Of a DNA stretch of 40,095 bases, positions 21,773-30,350 are shown piece after piece (the first letter of the stretch is position 1; every line of letters starts with the position of its first letter). Both the position numbers and the translations under genes were made by a program. The notes under the pieces are model-generated. The model had not been told where the DNA came from, made no database searches, and saw nothing but the letters and a program-made list of their open reading frames with translations. Source of the DNA: Rhodospirillaceae bacterium (GTDB taxonomy: Bacteria > Pseudomonadota > Alphaproteobacteria > GCA-2731375); the NCBI GenBank assembly GCA_018660265.1, contig JABJKS010000055.1, forward strand, positions 1 through 40,095. The letters are read 5' to 3'.

Positions 21773-22872
21773 GCCAGCTTTGGATCGCAGATCAACCCGG
21801 TTCTAATGGCGGCACCCTTGTCGGCCTCTGCGAATGCCGTGTTGATTTGATCGATGGGATACAGCTCCGATAAGATTTTTTCGAACGGGTAGCGGTCGGC
21901 GCCCCTATGCAACAGCTCCAACCCCCGGCGTAGAGCCCAGGCCTGATAACCCCCAACACCAACCATGCGCCGGTTGGAATGAACCAGCCACGCCGGGTTG
22001 AACGGTATTGTGTGCTTGCCGCTGATATTGCCGATCACCAAATAGCGGCCTTCGTTCCGGGCCATTTGCAGGCCTTCGGTCAGGGCAGCAGGGTGGCCGA
22101 CCAGTTCGGCAACCACATGGCCACCGCCGCCCGTCAGATCCTTGACCGCTTCAATGCGCTGTTCAGGGCTGTCGAAATCATCGACGTTCAGGACATGATC
22201 GGCGCCGAATTCGCGCGCCAGGGCCAGGCGGTCAGGCAACTTATCCAGCACAATGATATTGGTCGCACCGGCTTCCCTGGCCACGGCGGCGGCGTAAAGG
22301 CCCAGCCCGCCCGCACCTTGGATCACCACAGTTTCGCCGGCGCGCAGATTGACCTGATCCAGGCCATAGGTCACCTGGGCCAGGGCGCAGTTCAGGGGAG
22401 CGGTAACCCGGTCACTTAAGGCGTCCGGGGTGCGGAGGATGAAATGGCCGGGGCGAAGATAGAAATATTCCGCATAGGCACCCGTGAAATGGGGCGGTTT
22501 GTCGCTTTTTGATCGACCCGCACCAATCCGTCGGGAGTCGCAATGATGGCTGTCATTGGACAGACAGGGCTGACAATGATGGCAGGGGTAGAAATAGGAA
22601 TAGACGATGCGGTCGCCTTCCCGTAGTGCCTGCCCGGCGGCATCGGTATGGATGTTGCTGCCAAGGCGTTCGACCACGCCGGTCATCTCGTGGCCCATGA
22701 TGGTGATCGGTGCCCGCGGCGTGTCCCCATGCCAGCCATGCAGATCAGAGCCGCAGATGGAGCTGACCGTAACCCGCACCAGAATGCCATCGGCATCCAC
22801 CTCCGGCACCGGAAATTCCCGAATTTCAAACGGTTCATTGGCACCTGTATAAACGTAAGACCAGCCCTGCAT
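21763..22872 (-). CDS. Zinc-dependent medium-chain alcohol dehydrogenase
   Basis: A 369-aa MDR-superfamily dehydrogenase. Catalytic zinc ligands are C40 and H61-E62, the structural zinc site is C97, C100, C103 and C111, and the nucleotide-binding motif G-A-G-G-L-G-L-Y-A-A is near residue 190. The layout resembles threonine dehydrogenase or sorbitol dehydrogenase-like enzymes acting on secondary alcohols. The ATG at 22872 is chosen because GGGAGAA is about 8 nt upstream; a longer reading reaches 22950 without a good site. It is convergent with the persulfide dioxygenase gene. About 100 bp upstream lies the first 261-bp inverted-repeat element. Confidence 0.88.
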   Translation of the reverse strand: MQGWSYVYTGANEPFEIREFPVPEVDADGILVRVTVSSICGSDLHGWHGDTPRAPITIMGHEMTGVVERLGSNIHTDAAGQALREGDRIVYSYFYPCHHCQPCLSNDSHHCDSRRIGAGRSKSDKPPHFTGAYAEYFYLRPGHFILRTPDALSDRVTAPLNCALAQVTYGLDQVNLRAGETVVIQGAGGLGLYAAAVAREAGATNIIVLDKLPDRLALAREFGADHVLNVDDFDSPEQRIEAVKDLTGGGGHVVAELVGHPAALTEGLQMARNEGRYLVIGNISGKHTIPFNPAWLVHSNRRMVGVGGYQAWALRRGLELLHRGADRYPFEKILSELYPIDQINTAFAEADKGAAIRTGLICDPKLARI

Positions 22873-22970
22873 AATGTTTCTCCCATTGGATAGAATATCT
22901 GCTTTGCCTGGATTGTTGCACAAATTGGGGTGCCAGGAACAATTGAACATTTCCCATCACCTCATATAAT

Positions 22971-23231
22971 AGAGCGTGTCGCGGCTAATTTGATTCATTT
23001 GATGCCACAGCCAAGCCATTGGGGTAGGCGCGTGGCGTAGCGCGATGTGGGACATCGGGCAAGCTACGTAACGCCGCCCAATGGCTTGGCTGTGCCACCG
23101 CAGGCCGGTCCTCCAGGACCCGTGGCGGCGTTACGGTTCTTGGACGATGTCCCACATCGACCTGCAAACCGCGCCTACCCACGGGTCCTGGAGGACCGGT
23201 CAAATGGTTCAGATTAGCCGCGACACGCTCT
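22971..23231. repeat. 261-bp nested inverted-repeat element A
   Basis: Imperfect 30-bp terminal inverted repeats (22971-23000 and 23202-23231) enclose two hairpin units. Unit 1 has arms 23004-23023 and 23077-23096 (19 of 20 paired) around a 53-nt core, 23024-23076. Unit 2 has arms 23105-23125 and 23179-23199 (21 of 21 paired) around a 53-nt core, 23126-23178, which is the inverted form of the first core with about 42 of 53 positions matching. So it is an inverted dimer. No ORF of note is inside and no target-site duplication was seen. It lies between the divergent alcohol dehydrogenase and TauD-type genes. Confidence 0.9.
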
Positions 23232-23270
23232 CTAACCTTTGAATAGCGAACCGTTTGGGAGGACGCCGCG

Positions 23271-24119
23271 ATGACCCTGCAAATCAAACCTCTATGCGAA
23301 GCCTTGGGGGCCGAGGTAACCGGCCTAGATCTATCCAAGCCCATGGCGGGGGAGGAAGGACAGGCCGTACACGAGGCGTTTTTGAAACATCACCTGTTGT
23401 GTTTCCGCAGCCCGCCGTTAAGCCCGGCTGATTTCGCCGATGTCGCTGGCAAATTCGGCACATTGCAGCCCCAATTACTGCGCAGTCAACGGGATGGCGA
23501 GGTGCCGGAGGTTTCGATCCTTGATAGCACCTATGTTCGGGTCGAGGATAAGCCTGATGATATGCGCCAGATGCGTTTGACCGGCTGGCATACGGACGAT
23601 TCCTACCTTGAAGTTCCCGCCAAGGCGACTTTGCTGCAATCCATCGAAATTCCCAAAAGTGGCGGGCAGACATCTTTTTGCAATACCCAAGCCGCCTATG
23701 AAGATTTGTCCGAGGCGGAAAAACAGCGCCTTGACGGCTTGTTTGCCGTCCATCGCTATGACACGCCCCGCGCACCTGTACCGCCAAAGGCGCGGACCCA
23801 GGCTGAAATTGATGAGACGCCCGAGGTCGTGCACCCCCTGGTGCGCACAAACGAGGATACGGGGCAAAAGGCGCTGTATTTTAACGCTAATCGAACCGAC
23901 CGTGTGGCCGATGTCAGCCATGCCGAGAGCGAGGAAATCCTCAACCTCGTCTATGACTCTATGACGCAGGCGCGTTACCGTTATGATCATGAATGGCAGG
24001 TTGGGGATTTGCTGATCTGGGACAATCGTTGTCTGGTACATTCCGTGAATATGGATTTTCCCGTTGGCCAGCGCCGTTTGCATCAACGCATTCTGTTGCG
24101 CGGCGACCGTCCGGTCTAA
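23271..24119 (+). CDS. TauD/TfdA family Fe(II)/2-oxoglutarate dioxygenase
   Basis: A 282-aa dioxygenase. The iron ligands are H107-T-D109 in G-W-H-T-D-D-S-Y and H257 in C-L-V-H-S; R273 is placed to bind 2-oxoglutarate. The N-terminal L-G-A-E-V-T-G-L-D-L segment is the family signature. The ATG at 23271 has GGGAGGA about 9 nt upstream. It begins 39 bp after the right end of repeat element A, so its promoter must overlap or lie inside the element. A second, divergent TauD-like gene follows 35 bp downstream in the same direction. The substrate is unknown. Confidence 0.9.
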   Translation: MTLQIKPLCEALGAEVTGLDLSKPMAGEEGQAVHEAFLKHHLLCFRSPPLSPADFADVAGKFGTLQPQLLRSQRDGEVPEVSILDSTYVRVEDKPDDMRQMRLTGWHTDDSYLEVPAKATLLQSIEIPKSGGQTSFCNTQAAYEDLSEAEKQRLDGLFAVHRYDTPRAPVPPKARTQAEIDETPEVVHPLVRTNEDTGQKALYFNANRTDRVADVSHAESEEILNLVYDSMTQARYRYDHEWQVGDLLIWDNRCLVHSVNMDFPVGQRRLHQRILLRGDRPV

Positions 24120-24154
24120 TATTAGAAAATCGAATTGAGAAGAGAGGCTGGGTC

Positions 24155-25234
24155 ATGAACGGAATATCACTGGAACCGGTGCAGGACGCATCCGCCTGGT
24201 GTGGAGCGGATTTCGAGACGGATCGGACTTGGGAATATGTGCTGGATGATACCCATCGTCGGGAGCTCGATCTTGCCTTGGCCGGGGTCAAGGATCGCGG
24301 GCTGACGGTGGCTCAACTTTCCGCTGCCAATTTTCCTCTGCCGACCTTGTCGAAAATTGCCGCCGCCGTGGGGGAGGATGTGGGTACCGGGCGTGGTTTT
24401 GCCCTGTTGCGCGGGTTTCCCATTGACGGCTATGAGAATTCTGACCTGGAGTTGATGTATTACGGCCTGTGCCGGCACATCGGCACCGGCATGACCCAAA
24501 ACAGCGACGGCGGCCTGATCCACTATGTTACTGATGGCGTGTTGAAACCGAACCAGGGCAATCGCGCCGTTGGCTTTCCCAAACTCGTAAGCATGCATGT
24601 GGATCTGATGGACATTGTCACCCTGTTATGTGTACGCCAGGCAGGTGACGAGCCGGAAAGTTATTTGGCCAGCAGTATCACTATCTACAATGAGATCCTC
24701 AAACGGCGGCCGGACCTGATGCCGCGCCTGTTGGACGGGTTTGAATGGGATAGAATGGATGAACATGGAGATGACGAGAGTGCGACGTCGGGCTATCGAG
24801 TGCCATTGTTCAGCCTTGCCAACGGTCAGGTATCCTGCCGCTACAACCGTTCCTGGATGAAGGCGGCCAACGCTCGCAAAAGCCAGCCCATGTCGGCGGA
24901 GGACGAGGCCGTCTTGGATCTGATTGACGAGATCGCGGCAGAAACGCGCCTGGCATTCCCCTTCGGCAAGGGGGATATTCAATTCTGCAGCAACTACACC
25001 ACCCTGCATGGTCGGGATGCCCATGCCTTGGAACCGGTGGAAGATAAGAAACGCTTGCTGATCCGCATCTGGCTTAATGCGCCGAAATTCAGAGAGTTTT
25101 CCGACGAAGCTGTTGTGCGCTATGGCATTGGCTGCCATGGTAATCTCGGCTGGACGGCGGAACAGATGCTGGCAGGGGATAACTTGTCATCCCGTGCCAG
25201 ACGGGACGACGGTGCCGTAAGACTACAGCCGTAA
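24155..25234 (+). CDS. TauD/TfdA-like dioxygenase, divergent member
   Basis: A 359-aa protein of the TauD/TfdA superfamily. The metal motif is H148-V-D150 in S-M-H-V-D, with a distal H285 in T-T-L-H-G-R-D and R304 as the likely 2-oxoglutarate arginine. It is about 75 residues longer than the neighbouring TauD enzyme and differs much from it, so it is not a recent duplicate. The ATG at 24155 is chosen for the AGAGAGG site upstream; the longer in-frame reading from 23993 overlaps the previous gene. It is probably co-transcribed with the preceding dioxygenase. The substrate is not evident. Confidence 0.85.
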   Translation: MNGISLEPVQDASAWCGADFETDRTWEYVLDDTHRRELDLALAGVKDRGLTVAQLSAANFPLPTLSKIAAAVGEDVGTGRGFALLRGFPIDGYENSDLELMYYGLCRHIGTGMTQNSDGGLIHYVTDGVLKPNQGNRAVGFPKLVSMHVDLMDIVTLLCVRQAGDEPESYLASSITIYNEILKRRPDLMPRLLDGFEWDRMDEHGDDESATSGYRVPLFSLANGQVSCRYNRSWMKAANARKSQPMSAEDEAVLDLIDEIAAETRLAFPFGKGDIQFCSNYTTLHGRDAHALEPVEDKKRLLIRIWLNAPKFREFSDEAVVRYGIGCHGNLGWTAEQMLAGDNLSSRARRDDGAVRLQP

Positions 25235-25265
25235 GACAACAACAATAAGATTACAGCCATAAAAC
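25218..25265. repeat. Short imperfect direct repeat across the dioxygenase stop codon
   Basis: A 20-nt sequence at 25218-25237 recurs at 25246-25265 with 17 of 20 bases equal (core TACAGCC). The first copy contains the stop codon of the TauD-like gene at 25232-25234. It may be a small local duplication; no function is apparent. Confidence 0.5.
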
Positions 25266-25299
25266 CAGGCGTATAAGAGTATTTTTTGGGGGAATTGAG

Positions 25300-27612
25300 A
25301 TGACGCAGGACCAGCACCAGAACCAAAAGGCTGAGGATTTAAAGCGGGATGCGATTCATTTCCATCGTTGGCCCACCCCGGGCAAGATAGAGGTCACCCC
25401 CACCAAACCACTGGCCAACCAACGGGATTTGGCCTTGGCCTATTCCCCAGGCGTCGCCGCACCTTGTATGTTGATTGTCGATGATCCGGATGCTGCGGCC
25501 CAGGTGACGGCCCGGGGCAATCTGGTCGGCGTTATCACCAATGGTACTGCCGTGCTGGGCCTGGGCAATATTGGACCGCTCGCCTCAAAGCCGGTGATGG
25601 AAGGCAAGGGCGTTCTGTTTAAGAAATTTGCCGGTATCGATGTTTTTGATATCGAGATCGACGAGACCGATCCGGACAAGTTCATAGAGATCGTACGTGC
25701 GTTGGAGCCGACCTTTGGCGGCATCAACCTCGAAGACATCAAGGCGCCCGAATGCTTCAAGATCGAAAACGGTCTGAAGGAGCAGATGAATATCCCGGTT
25801 TTCCATGATGATCAGCATGGCACGGCTATTTGCGTCTGTGCCGCCCTGGTCAACGGCCTGCGCTTTGTGGGCAAGGATCTGGACAAGGTCAAGGTCGTGA
25901 CATCGGGTGCGGGCGCAGCCGCCATCGCCTCCCTCAACCTCCTCGTCAGCCTTGGCATGCCGGTGGCGAATATCTACATCACCGATCGTAAGGGTGTGGT
26001 CTATGCCGGGCGCGAAGGCAGTATTGATGCCTCCAAAAAAGTCTATGAAAAAGAAACCTCTGATCGGACCTTGGCCGATGCCATCGCGGGGGCTGATGTC
26101 TTCCTCGGCATGTCCGGCCCGGACGTGTTGGACGAGGCCATGGTCAAATCCATGGCTGATAAGCCGATGATCCTGGCGCTTGCCAATCCGAACCCGGAAA
26201 TCCTGCCGGAGGTGGCGCATGCCGCCCGTAATGATGTTGTCATGGCCACCGGGCGTTCGGATTATCCCAATCAGGTCAACAACGTCTTGTGTTTCCCCTA
26301 TCTGTTCCGCGGTGCCCTGGACTGTGGTGCTACGGAAATTAACGAGGAAATGAAACGGGCCACGGTCTATGCCATTGCCGATTTGGCAATGGCGGAGTCA
26401 TCCGAGGTCGTGGCACAGGCTTATATGGGTGAGAAACTGGCCTTTGGCCGGGATTATCTGATCCCCAAACCTTTCGATCCCCGCCTGATACTTGAAATTG
26501 CCCCGGCGGTGGCAAAAGCGGCCATGGACAGCGGCATCGCGAAACGCCCTATTGAGGATTTCGAAGCCTATCGGGAAACCCTGGAACGCTTTGTTTATAA
26601 ATCCGGCATGGCCATGAAACCGGTGTTTGAACAGGCCCGCGCCCAGGGGCAGGCGCGTGGTGGGCTTGCCAAAGTGGTCTATGCGGAGGGTGAGGATAAA
26701 CGTGTCCTGCGCGCGGCTCAGGTGCTGATCGATGACAAGGTCTGTCGGCCCGTTCTGGTCGGCCGCCCGGACGTGATCAATGATCTGACGAAAGAACTCG
26801 GCCTGCGAATGGAGGCGGGGTCAGATTATGAAATCCTCGACCCCGATCGCTACGCCCAATACGACGACTATTGGCCGATCTATCATGACCGAATGCAAAA
26901 TCACGGCGTCTCACCGGATGAGGCAGGCGTCATGGCGCGGCGGAACAGCACTATTATTGCCGCCTTGATGGTTGAGGCGGGCGATGCCGATGCCATGATT
27001 TGTGGCTCCGTCGGTCGCTACCAACAGCATTTGGAGCATGTGGAGGCGGTCATCGGCCATGGCGAAGGGGTTGACCGTCTGGCCAGCCTTAGCGTTCTGA
27101 TCCTGCCGCAGGGGCAAACGATTTTCCTGTGTGACACGCAAGTGGCCACCAACCCGAACCCACAGGAAATTGCCAACATGACCCTGCTGGCAGCTGCTCA
27201 GGTGCGCCGTTTTGGTAATACGCCGAAAGCGGCTTTGCTGTCGCATTCCAACTTTGGCTCTTCGGGTTCACGTTCAGCCAAAAAGATGCGGCGGGCCTTG
27301 GAATTGATCAATGATTTCGCACCGGATTTGGCCGTGGATGGGGAAATGCATGGTGATGCCGCGTTAAGCGAGGCCATTCGCAAGCGGCTCTATCCCAACA
27401 CGCGCTTTGACGGTACCGCCAATTTGCTGATCATGCCCGGCCTGGATGCCGCCAATATCACCTACAACGTGGTCAAAACCCTGACGGGGGCTACTTCAAT
27501 AGGCCCGATCCTTCTGGGTGCGGCGAAGCCGGTGCATATTGTCACCACTTCCGTTACCTCCCGCGGTATCGTCAATATTTCCGCCCTGGCTGTGGTGGAT
27601 GCCCAAGGTTAG
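25300..27612 (+). CDS. maeB: NADP-dependent malic enzyme with phosphotransacetylase-like domain
   Basis: A 770-aa MaeB. Residues 20-160 form the malic N-terminal domain (A-Y-S-P-G-V-A near 48, and [12 protein letters not shown]), and 165-420 the NAD(P)-binding domain with F-H-D-D-Q-H-G-T-A and the G-A-G-A-A-A-I segment. Residues 430-770 are a phosphate acetyl/butyryltransferase-like domain, often regulatory and responding to acetyl-CoA. It decarboxylates malate to pyruvate, giving NADPH. The length is typical of the family. The ATG at 25300 follows a purine-rich GGGGGAATTGAG stretch. It stands alone between the dioxygenase pair and the thiolase pair. Confidence 0.95.
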
Positions 27613-27628
27613 CCTATTAGCTTAGGCT
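27611..27628 (+). terminator. Short hairpin after maeB
   Basis: AGCCTA (27611-27616) and TAGGCT (27623-27628) pair around 6 nt, directly after the maeB stop. There is no T run, so a terminator function is only tentative. Confidence 0.3.
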
Positions 27629-27672
27629 AGATCATTGAGTGGTGTTTTAGCGAGTAGTTGAGGAGAGCTGTC

Positions 27673-28836
27673 TTGGCGAGTTCAATGCAGGACGTCGCGA
27701 TTGTCGGCGTCGCGGAATCCGATATCGGCGTGGTGCCCGACAAAAGCAAATTTCAGCTTTCGGCTGAGGCGAGCCGATTGGCACTTGAAGATGCGGGGCT
27801 GTCGATCAAGGACGTGGATGGCATCTTCACCAACATCATTACAGAAGGGGGGCAATTTTCCTCCATGATGATGGCGGAATATATGGGCATTACCCCGCGC
27901 TATACGGACTCAACCTCCATCGGCGGGTCGTCCTTTGTCGTTTATGTAGAGCATGCGGCAATGGCCATTGCGGCGGGCATGTGCGAGGTGGCGCTGATCT
28001 GCCATGGCAGCACGAATATCTCTGATCGTGGCGGCAAGGGCGGTCCGGTGTCGCAGGCCACGGACGTATTCGGTCCAACCCAGTTTGAAGAACCCTATGG
28101 CATCTCCACCGTTGGTGCCTACGCCCTGGCCGCCCAGCGTCATATGCATGAATACGGCACCACCTCTGAACAGCTAGCCGAAATTGCCGTGGCGACCCGG
28201 AAATGGGCCTGTCTGAACCCCAAGGCCCGGATGCAGGATCCCATCACCATCGATGACGTGATGAATTCCCGCGTCATTGCTTCACCCCTGCATTTGCTGG
28301 ATTGCTGTCTGGTCACCGATGCCGGCGGTGCGGTCGTGTTGACGTCGTTGGAACGGGCCCGGGATTTGAAAAAGGCACCTGTACAATTGTTGGGCTCCGG
28401 TGAGGCGCATACCCACCGGATGATCAGCCAGATGCCGGATCTGACACAAACAGCGGCGGCGATTTCGGGCAAGTTGGCGTTTGAGCGGGCCGGGCTGACG
28501 CACGGCGATATCGATGTTGCGGAGATCTACGATTCCTTCACCATAACCGTACTGCTAACCCTGGAGAGCCTGGGTTTTTGCGGTAAGGGTGAGGGCGGGG
28601 CGTTCGTGTCCAACCAACGTACGGCACCGGGCGGCGATTTTCCGATGAATACCCAGGGCGGCGCTCTCTCGTACACGCATCCGGGCATGTTCGGCATTTT
28701 CACCGTCATTGAAGCCGTACGCCAAATTCGTGGCGAATGCGGCCCCCGGCAGGTTCCCGATGCCCGCGTCGCACTCTGTAACGGCACCGGGGGCACCTTG
28801 TCGTCCACCGGCACCATTATTCTGGGGAGGGATTGA
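27673..28836 (+). CDS. Thiolase-like protein of the SCP-x/Ltp type
   Basis: A 387-aa thiolase-fold protein. The usual active-site cysteine position holds small residues (S-I-G-G-S-S near 82-87), which is typical of lipid-transfer-protein/Ltp2-like members, some of which act as retro-aldolases with a DUF35 partner. The C-terminal G-G-A-L-S-Y-T-H-P-G motif is present. The start is probably the TTG at 27673, because AGGAG lies 7 nt upstream; the first ATG (27685) is too far from it. The stop at 28836 is 2 bp before the start of the DUF35 gene. The pair likely forms one acyl-CoA processing complex; whether it is a thiolase or aldolase is not decided. Confidence 0.85.
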   Translation: MASSMQDVAIVGVAESDIGVVPDKSKFQLSAEASRLALEDAGLSIKDVDGIFTNIITEGGQFSSMMMAEYMGITPRYTDSTSIGGSSFVVYVEHAAMAIAAGMCEVALICHGSTNISDRGGKGGPVSQATDVFGPTQFEEPYGISTVGAYALAAQRHMHEYGTTSEQLAEIAVATRKWACLNPKARMQDPITIDDVMNSRVIASPLHLLDCCLVTDAGGAVVLTSLERARDLKKAPVQLLGSGEAHTHRMISQMPDLTQTAAAISGKLAFERAGLTHGDIDVAEIYDSFTITVLLTLESLGFCGKGEGGAFVSNQRTAPGGDFPMNTQGGALSYTHPGMFGIFTVIEAVRQIRGECGPRQVPDARVALCNGTGGTLSSTGTIILGRD

Positions 28837-28838
28837 TC

Positions 28839-29273
28839 ATGACGTCGTCAACGCTGCCACCATTGCCCCCATTGCCACGGCCTTATCAAGACACCGCTGC
28901 CTATTGGGAGGCGGCGCGGGAGCACCGCTTTATCATCCAAAAATGTAACAACTGCGGTGAGTACCAGTTTTATCCCCGCGGTGTTTGCAGCCATTGCCTC
29001 TCCTCCGATTTGGCGTGGCAGGATGCCTCGGGCCGGGGCGAAGTCTATTCCTTCTCTATCAATTATCGTGCGCCCCATCCGGGCTTTGCCGATAAAACGC
29101 CCTTTGTTCTGGCCCTGGTTACTCTGGCGGAAGGGCCGCGCATGATGACCAATATCGTTGATTGCGATCCTGATACCGTGCAGATCGGTATGGCTGTCAC
29201 TGTGACCTTTGATGACGTGACGGAAGAGATAACGTTGCCGAAATTCCGACCGGCTTATACCAAGGTGCGGTAA
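28839..29273 (+). CDS. Zn-ribbon/OB-fold (DUF35) acyl-CoA-binding protein
   Basis: A 144-aa DUF35 protein. The N-terminal rubredoxin-like zinc ribbon has C36-N-N-C39 and C50-S-H-C53, followed by an OB-fold with the Y-x-x-x-x-x-Y-R-A-P-H-P-G-F segment. Such proteins pair with thiolase-like enzymes, as in ChsH2 with Ltp2. The ATG at 28839 uses the GGAGG site inside the end of the upstream gene. The last 17 coding bases (29257-29273) are part of the left terminal repeat of element B, and the same sequence appears inverted 228 bp away. Confidence 0.87.
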   Translation: MTSSTLPPLPPLPRPYQDTAAYWEAAREHRFIIQKCNNCGEYQFYPRGVCSHCLSSDLAWQDASGRGEVYSFSINYRAPHPGFADKTPFVLALVTLAEGPRMMTNIVDCDPDTVQIGMAVTVTFDDVTEEITLPKFRPAYTKVR

Positions 29274-29517
29274 TAGAGACCCATATAGATCGTTTCAGGC
29301 GTGCGCCGGGTAGGAATGGAAGCGCAGGCGGTACTGGTACCTTCAAGCTTTCATGACGCCGCCGGCGCGCTCCTGAAACGACCGAATTCGGCGTTTTACG
29401 AAGGCTTTCGGCGGTGTCGCGCGCTGCTTGTGGTACCAGGCACCACGGCGCAACACGCTCCTACCCGAAAACCTTCGTAAAGCGTCTATATGGGTCTCTA
29501 TTACCGCACCTTGGTAT
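29257..29517. repeat. 261-bp nested inverted-repeat element B
   Basis: Perfect 33-bp terminal inverted repeats (29257-29289 and 29485-29517) enclose two hairpin units. Unit 1 has arms 29290-29309 and 29362-29381 (18 of 20 paired) around core 29310-29361. Unit 2 has arms 29392-29412 and 29464-29484 (18 of 21 paired) around core 29413-29463, which is an inverted, diverged form of the first. The total length and segment order equal element A, although the terminal repeats and arms have unrelated sequence. The left terminal repeat includes the 3' end of the DUF35 gene; the right one ends on the first base of the stop codon of the convergent SirB1 gene. Confidence 0.9.
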
Positions 29518-30350
29518 TAATTAAGGCTGCGGCTTAGCTTGGCCTTCAGGCTGGCAAGATGTTGGTCGTGGGTGGGATTGGGATTGCGGGAGTGAAAATC
29601 ATCAATGCGCCCAAGGGCTGATTTGATGCTGCCGACGGACGCTTCCAATAACGCCAGTTCCGTCAGTGTTTCCACATTACGCGGTATAAGCAGGGCTATG
29701 GTCTGCAATATTTCGATGCCGCGGTCCCGGTTACCCTCGTTCAACGCCCTGATCTTGATATTGTTTTGCAGTCGAACAAGAATTTCGCGGTCGGATACGG
29801 GGCGGATAAGATCAGCCTGTTGAGGCATTTGCTGGCCATGCAGGCGCATAAATATCTTTTGCATATCCCCCCCGCTCACCCGCCGCGCCTCATCGAACGG
29901 ATCTATGAAGGCATATTCGCCGGCGCTACCCAGGCGAAGTAGGAAATGTCCGGGAAAATTCAGGCCCGATACCTCCCATCCCACGGCCCGCCCCGCATGA
30001 ATGGCTAATATACCAAGTGCGACAGGTAGCCCTTTGCGGCGGTCCATGACCTGCATCAGATTGGCGTTCTGTGGGTCGTCATAGGTTTCCACATCGCCCT
30101 GATAAAGGTGCTGTCTGTAAAGGACATCGGACAGCACGGCTGCGCGATCAGCCAAGGTGTCGACATCTCGCGATGCGGCTTTCATGTCAGCGGCGATAAG
30201 GTCAAGTTGATCGCGATAGTCGGCAATGTTGTTCTCGGGCAAGTCCAGGGCGGCCAACAGCAAAGCGGCTTCGCCAATGTCAAAGGCGTCCGTGTCCTGG
30301 GCCCCGATGGCTTCCACGCGCGCCAGTATGTCTGATTTATTGAACGTCAT
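29517..30350 (-). CDS. SirB1 family protein (transglutaminase-like with TPR-like C-terminus)
   Basis: A 277-aa protein of the SirB1 type. The middle has the family pattern N-L-M-Q-V-M-D-R-R-K-G-L-P-V-A-L-G, V-S-G-L-N-F-P-G-H-F-L-L-R and the F-I-D-P-F-D segment; the C-terminus is helical, TPR-like. Related domains look like transglutaminases, but this family generally lacks a proven activity. The gene is 18 bp downstream of the VOC gene and is probably the last in the operon. Its stop codon overlaps the end of repeat element B. Confidence 0.85.
   Translation of the reverse strand: MTFNKSDILARVEAIGAQDTDAFDIGEAALLLAALDLPENNIADYRDQLDLIAADMKAASRDVDTLADRAAVLSDVLYRQHLYQGDVETYDDPQNANLMQVMDRRKGLPVALGILAIHAGRAVGWEVSGLNFPGHFLLRLGSAGEYAFIDPFDEARRVSGGDMQKIFMRLHGQQMPQQADLIRPVSDREILVRLQNNIKIRALNEGNRDRGIEILQTIALLIPRNVETLTELALLEASVGSIKSALGRIDDFHSRNPNPTHDQHLASLKAKLSRSLN

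Follow-up and report, generated by a model that had tools for sequence, protein, structure and literature searches.

Two classes of small repeat already known in bacteria come close to the elements described here: the miniature inverted-repeat transposable elements (MITEs) and the head-to-head dimers of repetitive extragenic palindromes (REPs). According to the available part of PMC3733652, REPs are units of 20-40 bp carrying GTAG or CGTC tags, which are either linked to REP-associated tyrosine transposases (RAYTs) or lack a known transposase. The available part of a survey of non-coding RNAs in 50 genomes (PMC11109978) adds 250 mobile or repeat candidates (MRSC), and that of PMC5896051 describes the MITEs QMITE1 and QMITE2 of Coxiella burnetii. 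We analysed a stretch of 40,095 nucleotides (the window; contig JABJKS010000055.1, positions 1 to 40,095, assembly GCA_018660265.1) from a Rhodospirillaceae bacterium (Alphaproteobacteria), which contains two 261-bp elements: A (22971-23231) and B (29257-29517, or 29258-29516 when the TTA direct repeats are left outside). Each is composed of two inverted copies of a structured unit of ~95 nt, enclosed by terminal inverted repeats (TIRs) of 32-33 nt.

Like the MITEs of the IS630 and IS1380 families, these elements are ~260 bp long and non-coding, have TIRs matching those of autonomous insertion sequences (IS), and show many copies, a short target repeat at most of the copies read and empty sites; they differ in having a conserved structured interior, which elements with unrelated ends share and which the tested IS loci lack. 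With the REP dimers, or bacterial interspersed mosaic elements (BIMEs), as presented in the available part of PMC3733652, they have in common inverted hairpin pairs (often hetero-dimers), a location at gene ends, G.T pairs in the stems and the provision of stop codons, whereas the units described here measure ~95 nt, have a conserved internal loop and are mostly bounded by TIRs. The MRSC are likewise multi-copy covarying hairpins, judged selfish in the accessible text of PMC11109978, which leaves RNA or DNA open; MRSC-65-2, the only candidate compared, differs by its description there in being a single long stem with UYCCGG, and the present family may be among the 250. The accessible text of PMC5896051 attributes to the two QMITEs strong predicted folds that yield small RNAs, as well as different dimensions (QMITE1, 300-400 bp with 2-3 nt repeats; QMITE2, 7-9 bp repeats). 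Nothing alike appears in the available parts of PMC8632094 and PMC3281130, and no published description of the motif or its ends, or of similar IS630/IS1380 MITEs, was found in the literature searched, within which two features are new: a structured interior persisting while the ends change, and a non-canonical covariation almost without exception.

The plan that the initial annotation had given for both elements (terminal repeat, arm, core, arm, spacer, arm, inverted core, arm, terminal repeat) holds at its coordinates, and the motif GGGTAGG-N-CAAG-N-CRCCGCC, which it had assigned to all four units, lies at 23022-23078 (+), 23124-23180 (-), 29308-29363 (+) and 29410-29466 (-). The head-to-head dimers also stand; the unit length of ~93 nt is corrected to the 96-99 nt spanned by the covariance model. 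Two such models were used, R1 built from 18 units and R2 from 107 units, and the R2 model places unit A1 at 23001-23099 on the plus strand (87.5 bits), A2 at 23103-23201 forward on the minus strand (92.3 bits), B1 at 29288-29383 on the plus strand (72.3 bits) and B2 at 29390-29486 forward on the minus strand (79.5 bits). Each of them is predicted to form one long hairpin (fold z of -7.9, -10.0, -6.0 and -7.0 for A1, A2, B1 and B2), none of 200 shuffles being as stable. A and B constitute two subfamilies: their tips are unrelated in sequence, in agreement with the earlier claim that the outer arms are wholly different, which fails at the inner arm ends, where the two are alike (GACCCATATAGA in B, GACCCATTTGA in the A type and GATTCATTTGA in window A).

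The pattern of substitutions identifies the unit as a predicted hairpin of ~95 nt, consisting of a variable outer stem, a non-canonical internal loop, a second stem, a small loop and an apical hairpin. Among 107 units, 94.6% of the cells were standard pairs, compared with 38-44% when the partner columns were slid by 1-3 positions (cells count sequences, not independent events), and 32 of the 32 pairs had changed on both sides. The initial alignment, made without any fitting to structure, gave 95.0% against 39-42% in the slid controls; a further 77 units (75 from outside the class; 74 distinct, all 77 counted), retrieved with a model trained without them, gave 93.1% against 32-44%. Paired changes well above the slid-column controls are what the covarying stems of the initial annotation implied.

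If the palindrome were relevant only as double-stranded DNA, G.T and A.C mismatched pairs would be expected to be equally common, and they are not. The G.T:A.C cells numbered 65:3 and 111:3 in stem 2, 93:21 and 61:30 in stem 1, and 14:1 and 35:2 in stem 3 (alignments A3 and A4, respectively), with the proviso that alignments A3-A6 were fitted to structure and may favour G.T somewhat. These counts leave out rows lacking AGG where it should stand, most of them reverse-strand echoes, so that 93 of 116 rows were kept in A3 and 106 of 150 in A4, which itself took 150 of 173 matches. Outside the class the proportions were 63:7, 38:2 and 15:4 (75 of the 77 units, two rows from the in-class genome G123 being dropped). 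Counted as one-step events within clusters of related units, changes to G.T exceeded those to A.C by 66 to 26 (p 3.7e-5), distributed by stem 1, 2 and 3 as 36:22, 23:3 and 7:1, the stem 1 count being weak when taken alone. We take this excess of G.T to mark the unit-forward strand as the folding one. The wobble pairs of stem 1 mostly have T in the 5' arm and G in the 3' arm (86 to 7 in A3, 46 to 15 in A4; 25 to 11 as events), for which we have no explanation.

The internal loop adjoins the outer stem and reads AGG[A/C] on the 5' side and [G/A]ACG on the 3' side. Its last 5' and first 3' bases are A.G in 64 and C.A in 43 of the 107 units, without exception, and the neighbouring G.A is kept in 105 of 107; outside the class the same pair of positions is C.A in 61, A.G in 11 and otherwise in 3 of 75 units. 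Since the models treat the loop columns as unpaired, this pattern was not built into them, and the counts refer to units and not to independent switches. In a G912 element (a genome of another class), the second unit has lost the inner loop and the apical hairpin and, as judged by eye, has kept AAGGC/TAACG. This retention and the coupling of A.G to C.A make the internal loop the likely contact point. The same observations bear on the possibility that A and B are ordinary MITEs whose palindromes are matched solely through template switching or gene conversion, the structure having no function. Palindromes can indeed self-correct, and the outer arms differ freely among lineages; correction, in contrast, would not favour G.T over A.C, would not keep two internal loops and would not account for the coupling of A.G to C.A across all 107 units, and we consider this explanation very improbable.

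We classify A and B as non-autonomous DNA transposons (MITEs), because sister genomes lack them at the corresponding positions and their ends are IS630-like; they are also short, bounded by TIRs and devoid of any contained open reading frame (ORF) of at least 100 amino acids in the ORF list of the window. IS630 and IS1380 are both families of DDE transposases. An IS630-type locus with a DDE_3 domain (L288, genome G008) shares 24 of 27 positions of its left end with the left end of A (best of 60 shuffles, 18), and another (L281, genome G006, DDE_3) shares 25 of 31 positions, again of its left end, with a B-type TIR (best of 60 shuffles, 20). A different end, AGCCCGCATTTCTCACCA or near-variants of it, occurs in 9 of the 385 genomes of the class draw and agrees at 15-16 of 18 positions with each end of two annotated IS1380 elements (Bradyrhizobium and Pseudomonas plasmids). 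The ends at locus L268 match one end of an annotated Cupriavidus IS630 element at 20 of 20 positions and the other at 19 of 29. At least seven further end types were seen that are tied to no IS family, and in one batch 11 of 20 loci had clear ends 257-277 bp apart. By these end similarities, the same interior sits between the ends of two IS families, IS630 and IS1380.

No unit was detected with R2, at E up to 1, in 11 IS loci tested (two of which overlap), so the interior is not a leftover of those IS. Two candidate sources were discarded: an IS5-type (DUF4096) element, whose best end match was 17 of 24 among the 12 loci scanned in the order, and an element with IS1380 ends in genome G299, a fragment with an NCBIfam match of 19.8 bits against a cut-off of 180. 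We tentatively raise a further possibility, namely that the paired hairpin is itself the selfish unit, which would swap in TIRs of unrelated families (IS630, IS1380 and others), borrow their transposases and bind one conserved host factor through its loop.

Mobility is visible in the closest genomes. The flanks of A and those of B meet without the element in the sister genome G007, and A is also absent at the same place in G002 and G008. B entered the end of a gene for a ChsH2-like OB-fold protein, which ends GCATAA in G007 (read by eye) and in the window runs into B and stops at 29271-29273. Identical TTA or TAA repeats flank 9 of the 10 B-type copies read, window B included (the exception, L073, has TCA/TGA), and TA flanks both sides of 18 of the 19 two-ended A-type copies read. 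At least 16 places in G912 gave a match, 11 of these 16 with an identical score; four aligned copies are near-identical across the whole element and unrelated outside it, with TA on both sides, and, being near-identical, are probably recent. Contigs ending in B sequence were judged to be assembly breaks. Other B-type copies are rearranged: half an element supplies the last residues and the stop codon of an ORF that, as judged by eye, resembles an MFS transporter (L161, G004:C46, ~22513-22588); the apical region of another has been entered by a different palindromic element, CTAGAGCAACC..., giving nested MITEs (L162, G009:C405:1-273); and at G005:C116:18120-18173 and G005:C7:10730-10819 facing B-type TIRs span 54 and 90 bp, the interior being lost.

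The explanation that we favour, with moderate confidence, is that A and B are MITEs carrying a strand-specific folded module that a host factor reads, preferably as RNA. IS630-type transposases would move the elements in trans, and the folded forward strand would be bound at its internal loop by a widespread host factor. In the preferred version, read-through RNA from either neighbouring gene would make the forward hairpin first, so that either orientation would work and insertions at gene ends would stay tolerable. We put RNA first because, in a head-to-head pair, reading from either side reaches a forward unit before an inverted one, and because of the wobble pattern and the gene-end location. 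The initial annotation had already suggested that an inverted dimer could give the same folded RNA from either strand; this fits the asymmetry between G.U and A.C.

The units could alternatively act as single-stranded DNA hairpins, formed on the lagging strand or by cruciform extrusion, which would recruit a host DNA factor for propagation with no part played by RNA, a role of the kind proposed for the hairpins of REPs and of IS200/IS605 elements. We give this DNA step an appreciable minority weight, about one third, because a selfish element is selected for its own spread and would keep what it needs in cis for spreading; the motif is kept while the transposase-specific ends change. The long outer stems suit extrusion, G.T may be favoured over A.C in DNA too, and the near-identical, probably recent copies of G912 agree with such a role. 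Against this, the DDE families IS630 and IS1380 need no single-stranded hairpin, and the units without detectable ends lie between genes. Moreover, the host genome has three Y1_Tnp (HUH) genes, and neither the motif scan nor the model (E up to 1) detected a unit at their loci. The initial annotation had offered a structured RNA or a hairpin-processed mobile DNA; covariation and mobility are upheld, and hairpin processing is not supported, given the empty Y1 loci and the ends and TA-containing target sites, which point to a DDE transposase. Beside two of the three Y1 genes (L020 and L021, G000:C26 and C64) there are short repeats that read AATTACGGTGACAGTGCACT in full or in part and may be end signals belonging to these genes.

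The Y1 loci also bear on the idea that our units form a large REP/BIME family, so far unrecognised, which MITEs have captured and a Y1 tyrosine transposase mobilises. The available part of PMC3733652 describes REPs as forming head-to-head hetero-dimers, lying between convergent genes and supplying stop codons; the window units have GTAG at the foot of the hairpin, and units without ends exist. The unit of ~95 nt, however, is not the 20-40 bp palindrome with a terminal GTAG or CGTC tag that defines a REP; GTAG is not conserved (G in 51% at position 23, T in 72% at position 24), the TIRs match those of DDE elements, and no unit accompanies the three Y1 genes of the host genome. We regard this origin as improbable.

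Several observations weigh against our preferred explanation, beyond the limits already attached to the cell counts, the fitted alignments and the stem 1 events. Outer stems of ~20 bp are longer than would be required of an RNA motif and could attract RNase III. The right ends match less well than the left (16 of 20 for L288, compared with a related TIR, and 14 of 20 for L281), and the IS630 loci in question belong to other genomes of the same genus. No autonomous element with B-type TIRs was found in the host genome (G000) or in G005, where facing TIR pairs are at most ~290 bp apart. Two other of the four annotated IS1380 elements match AGCCCGCATTTCTCACCA at only 12-15 of 18 positions, and the copy of A in the window lacks an intact TA repeat. 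Finally, the bias towards convergent genes described below, which is reported for REPs too, may reflect mere purging, and not every unit belongs to a recognisable element.

The further copies expected by the initial annotation are present in the host genome and in its relatives, where the covariance models retrieve them. Its sequence pattern occurs at 18 places of the 5.55-Mb genome, and the same pattern read backwards occurs at none. R1 gave 65 matches in the host genome at E up to 0.1, which correspond to 55 places and 10 opposite-strand echoes, and 44 of the 55 places form 22 inverted pairs. Units were detected with R1 in 14 of 15 genomes of the order, the host included, and in 38 of 385 genomes of an even draw from the class, including the host and three of its genus; with R2 they were detected in 33 of 398 genomes of the phylum draw, 18 of them in other classes, and in 47 of 250 genomes of the order of G745, which belongs to another class. 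These genome tallies are lower bounds, at most 150 candidates being scored per genome in the small draws and 10 or 16 in the large ones. A stricter pattern finds the motif, among the matches listed, in Roseibium aggregatum, Hoeflea poritis, Nitratireductor and Anderseniella. Both members of a pair could be verified in R. aggregatum, H. poritis, Nitratireductor sp. XY-223, a Pararhizobium metagenome-assembled genome and an uncultured Rhizobiaceae-group genome, and single units at an N. soli locus and one further H. poritis locus; TIRs are present in 3 of 4 tested loci. Searches with A gave no match in plasmids or phages, and searches with B, limited to plasmids, gave none there. The only genome of the order without units (G014) has 22 contigs with short DUF4096 (IS5-type) matches, mostly at contig ends, and one locus (L189, G317:C95) has two unit pairs of differing scores ~1.1 kb apart.

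The genomic setting was counted for 88 distinct elements, genes being called by a longest-ORF rule: the neighbouring genes are convergent for 32, tandem for 26 and divergent for 15; a further 12 are ambiguous and 3 lie inside an ORF (raw counts). The median distances to the gene ends in the convergent group are 10 and 4 bases. In other classes, units at five loci (L308, L316, L321, L322 and L323) have no detectable ends and lie between genes, so the module is not only a part of MITEs; at two further loci (L312, L317) single units are bounded, by eye, by inverted ends. Of the units without ends at L316 and L308, one lies behind groEL and one near rpsU (by eye).

Within the window, element A lies between divergent genes, a zinc-dehydrogenase-like ORF starting at 22950 (-) and a TauD-like ORF starting at 23271 (+). 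Its left TIR (AGAGCGTGTCGCGGCTAATTTGATTC..., an IS630-like end) occupies 22971-23002 (+) and its inverted-repeat partner 23200-23231 (-), the two arms being 91% complementary. Element B lies between two convergent genes, with TTA target-site copies at 29255-29257 and 29517-29519, the latter doubling as the stop codon of the minus-strand ORF 29517-30350. Its left TIR (TACCAAGGTGCGGTAATAGAGACCCATATAGA, 29258-29289, +) gives the stop codon at 29271-29273 to the ORF 28833-29273, and its right TIR occupies 29485-29516 (-); the arms 29257-29289 and 29485-29517 are 100% complementary. Both elements have further inner inverted repeats. At gathering score no Rfam family matches the window, and no tRNA was detected in it; across 20 loci the sole Rfam match was suhB, outside the element. 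Matches of A to microRNA precursors in the E-value mode of Rfam (best 29.2 against a gathering score of 88) are chance matches to a long stem. Integron attC hairpins are bounded by the R boxes RYYYAAC/GTTRRRY; by eye, no such pair bounds the units. The order of the motifs does not fit the twister and twister-sister ribozymes or the k-turn.

Bacterial MITEs are usually treated as decayed IS with an unimportant interior; in the elements described here the interior is conserved and the ends vary. The motif is sharply defined, abundant and apparently recently active in G912, and its non-canonical covariation, in 179 of 182 units, can guide structural work. The structured module occurs in at least two classes of Pseudomonadota; if the paired hairpin were itself the selfish unit, this breadth would reflect its age. 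With this family it can be tested in which form, RNA or single-stranded DNA, the hairpins of small mobile elements act, and what host factor recognises them.

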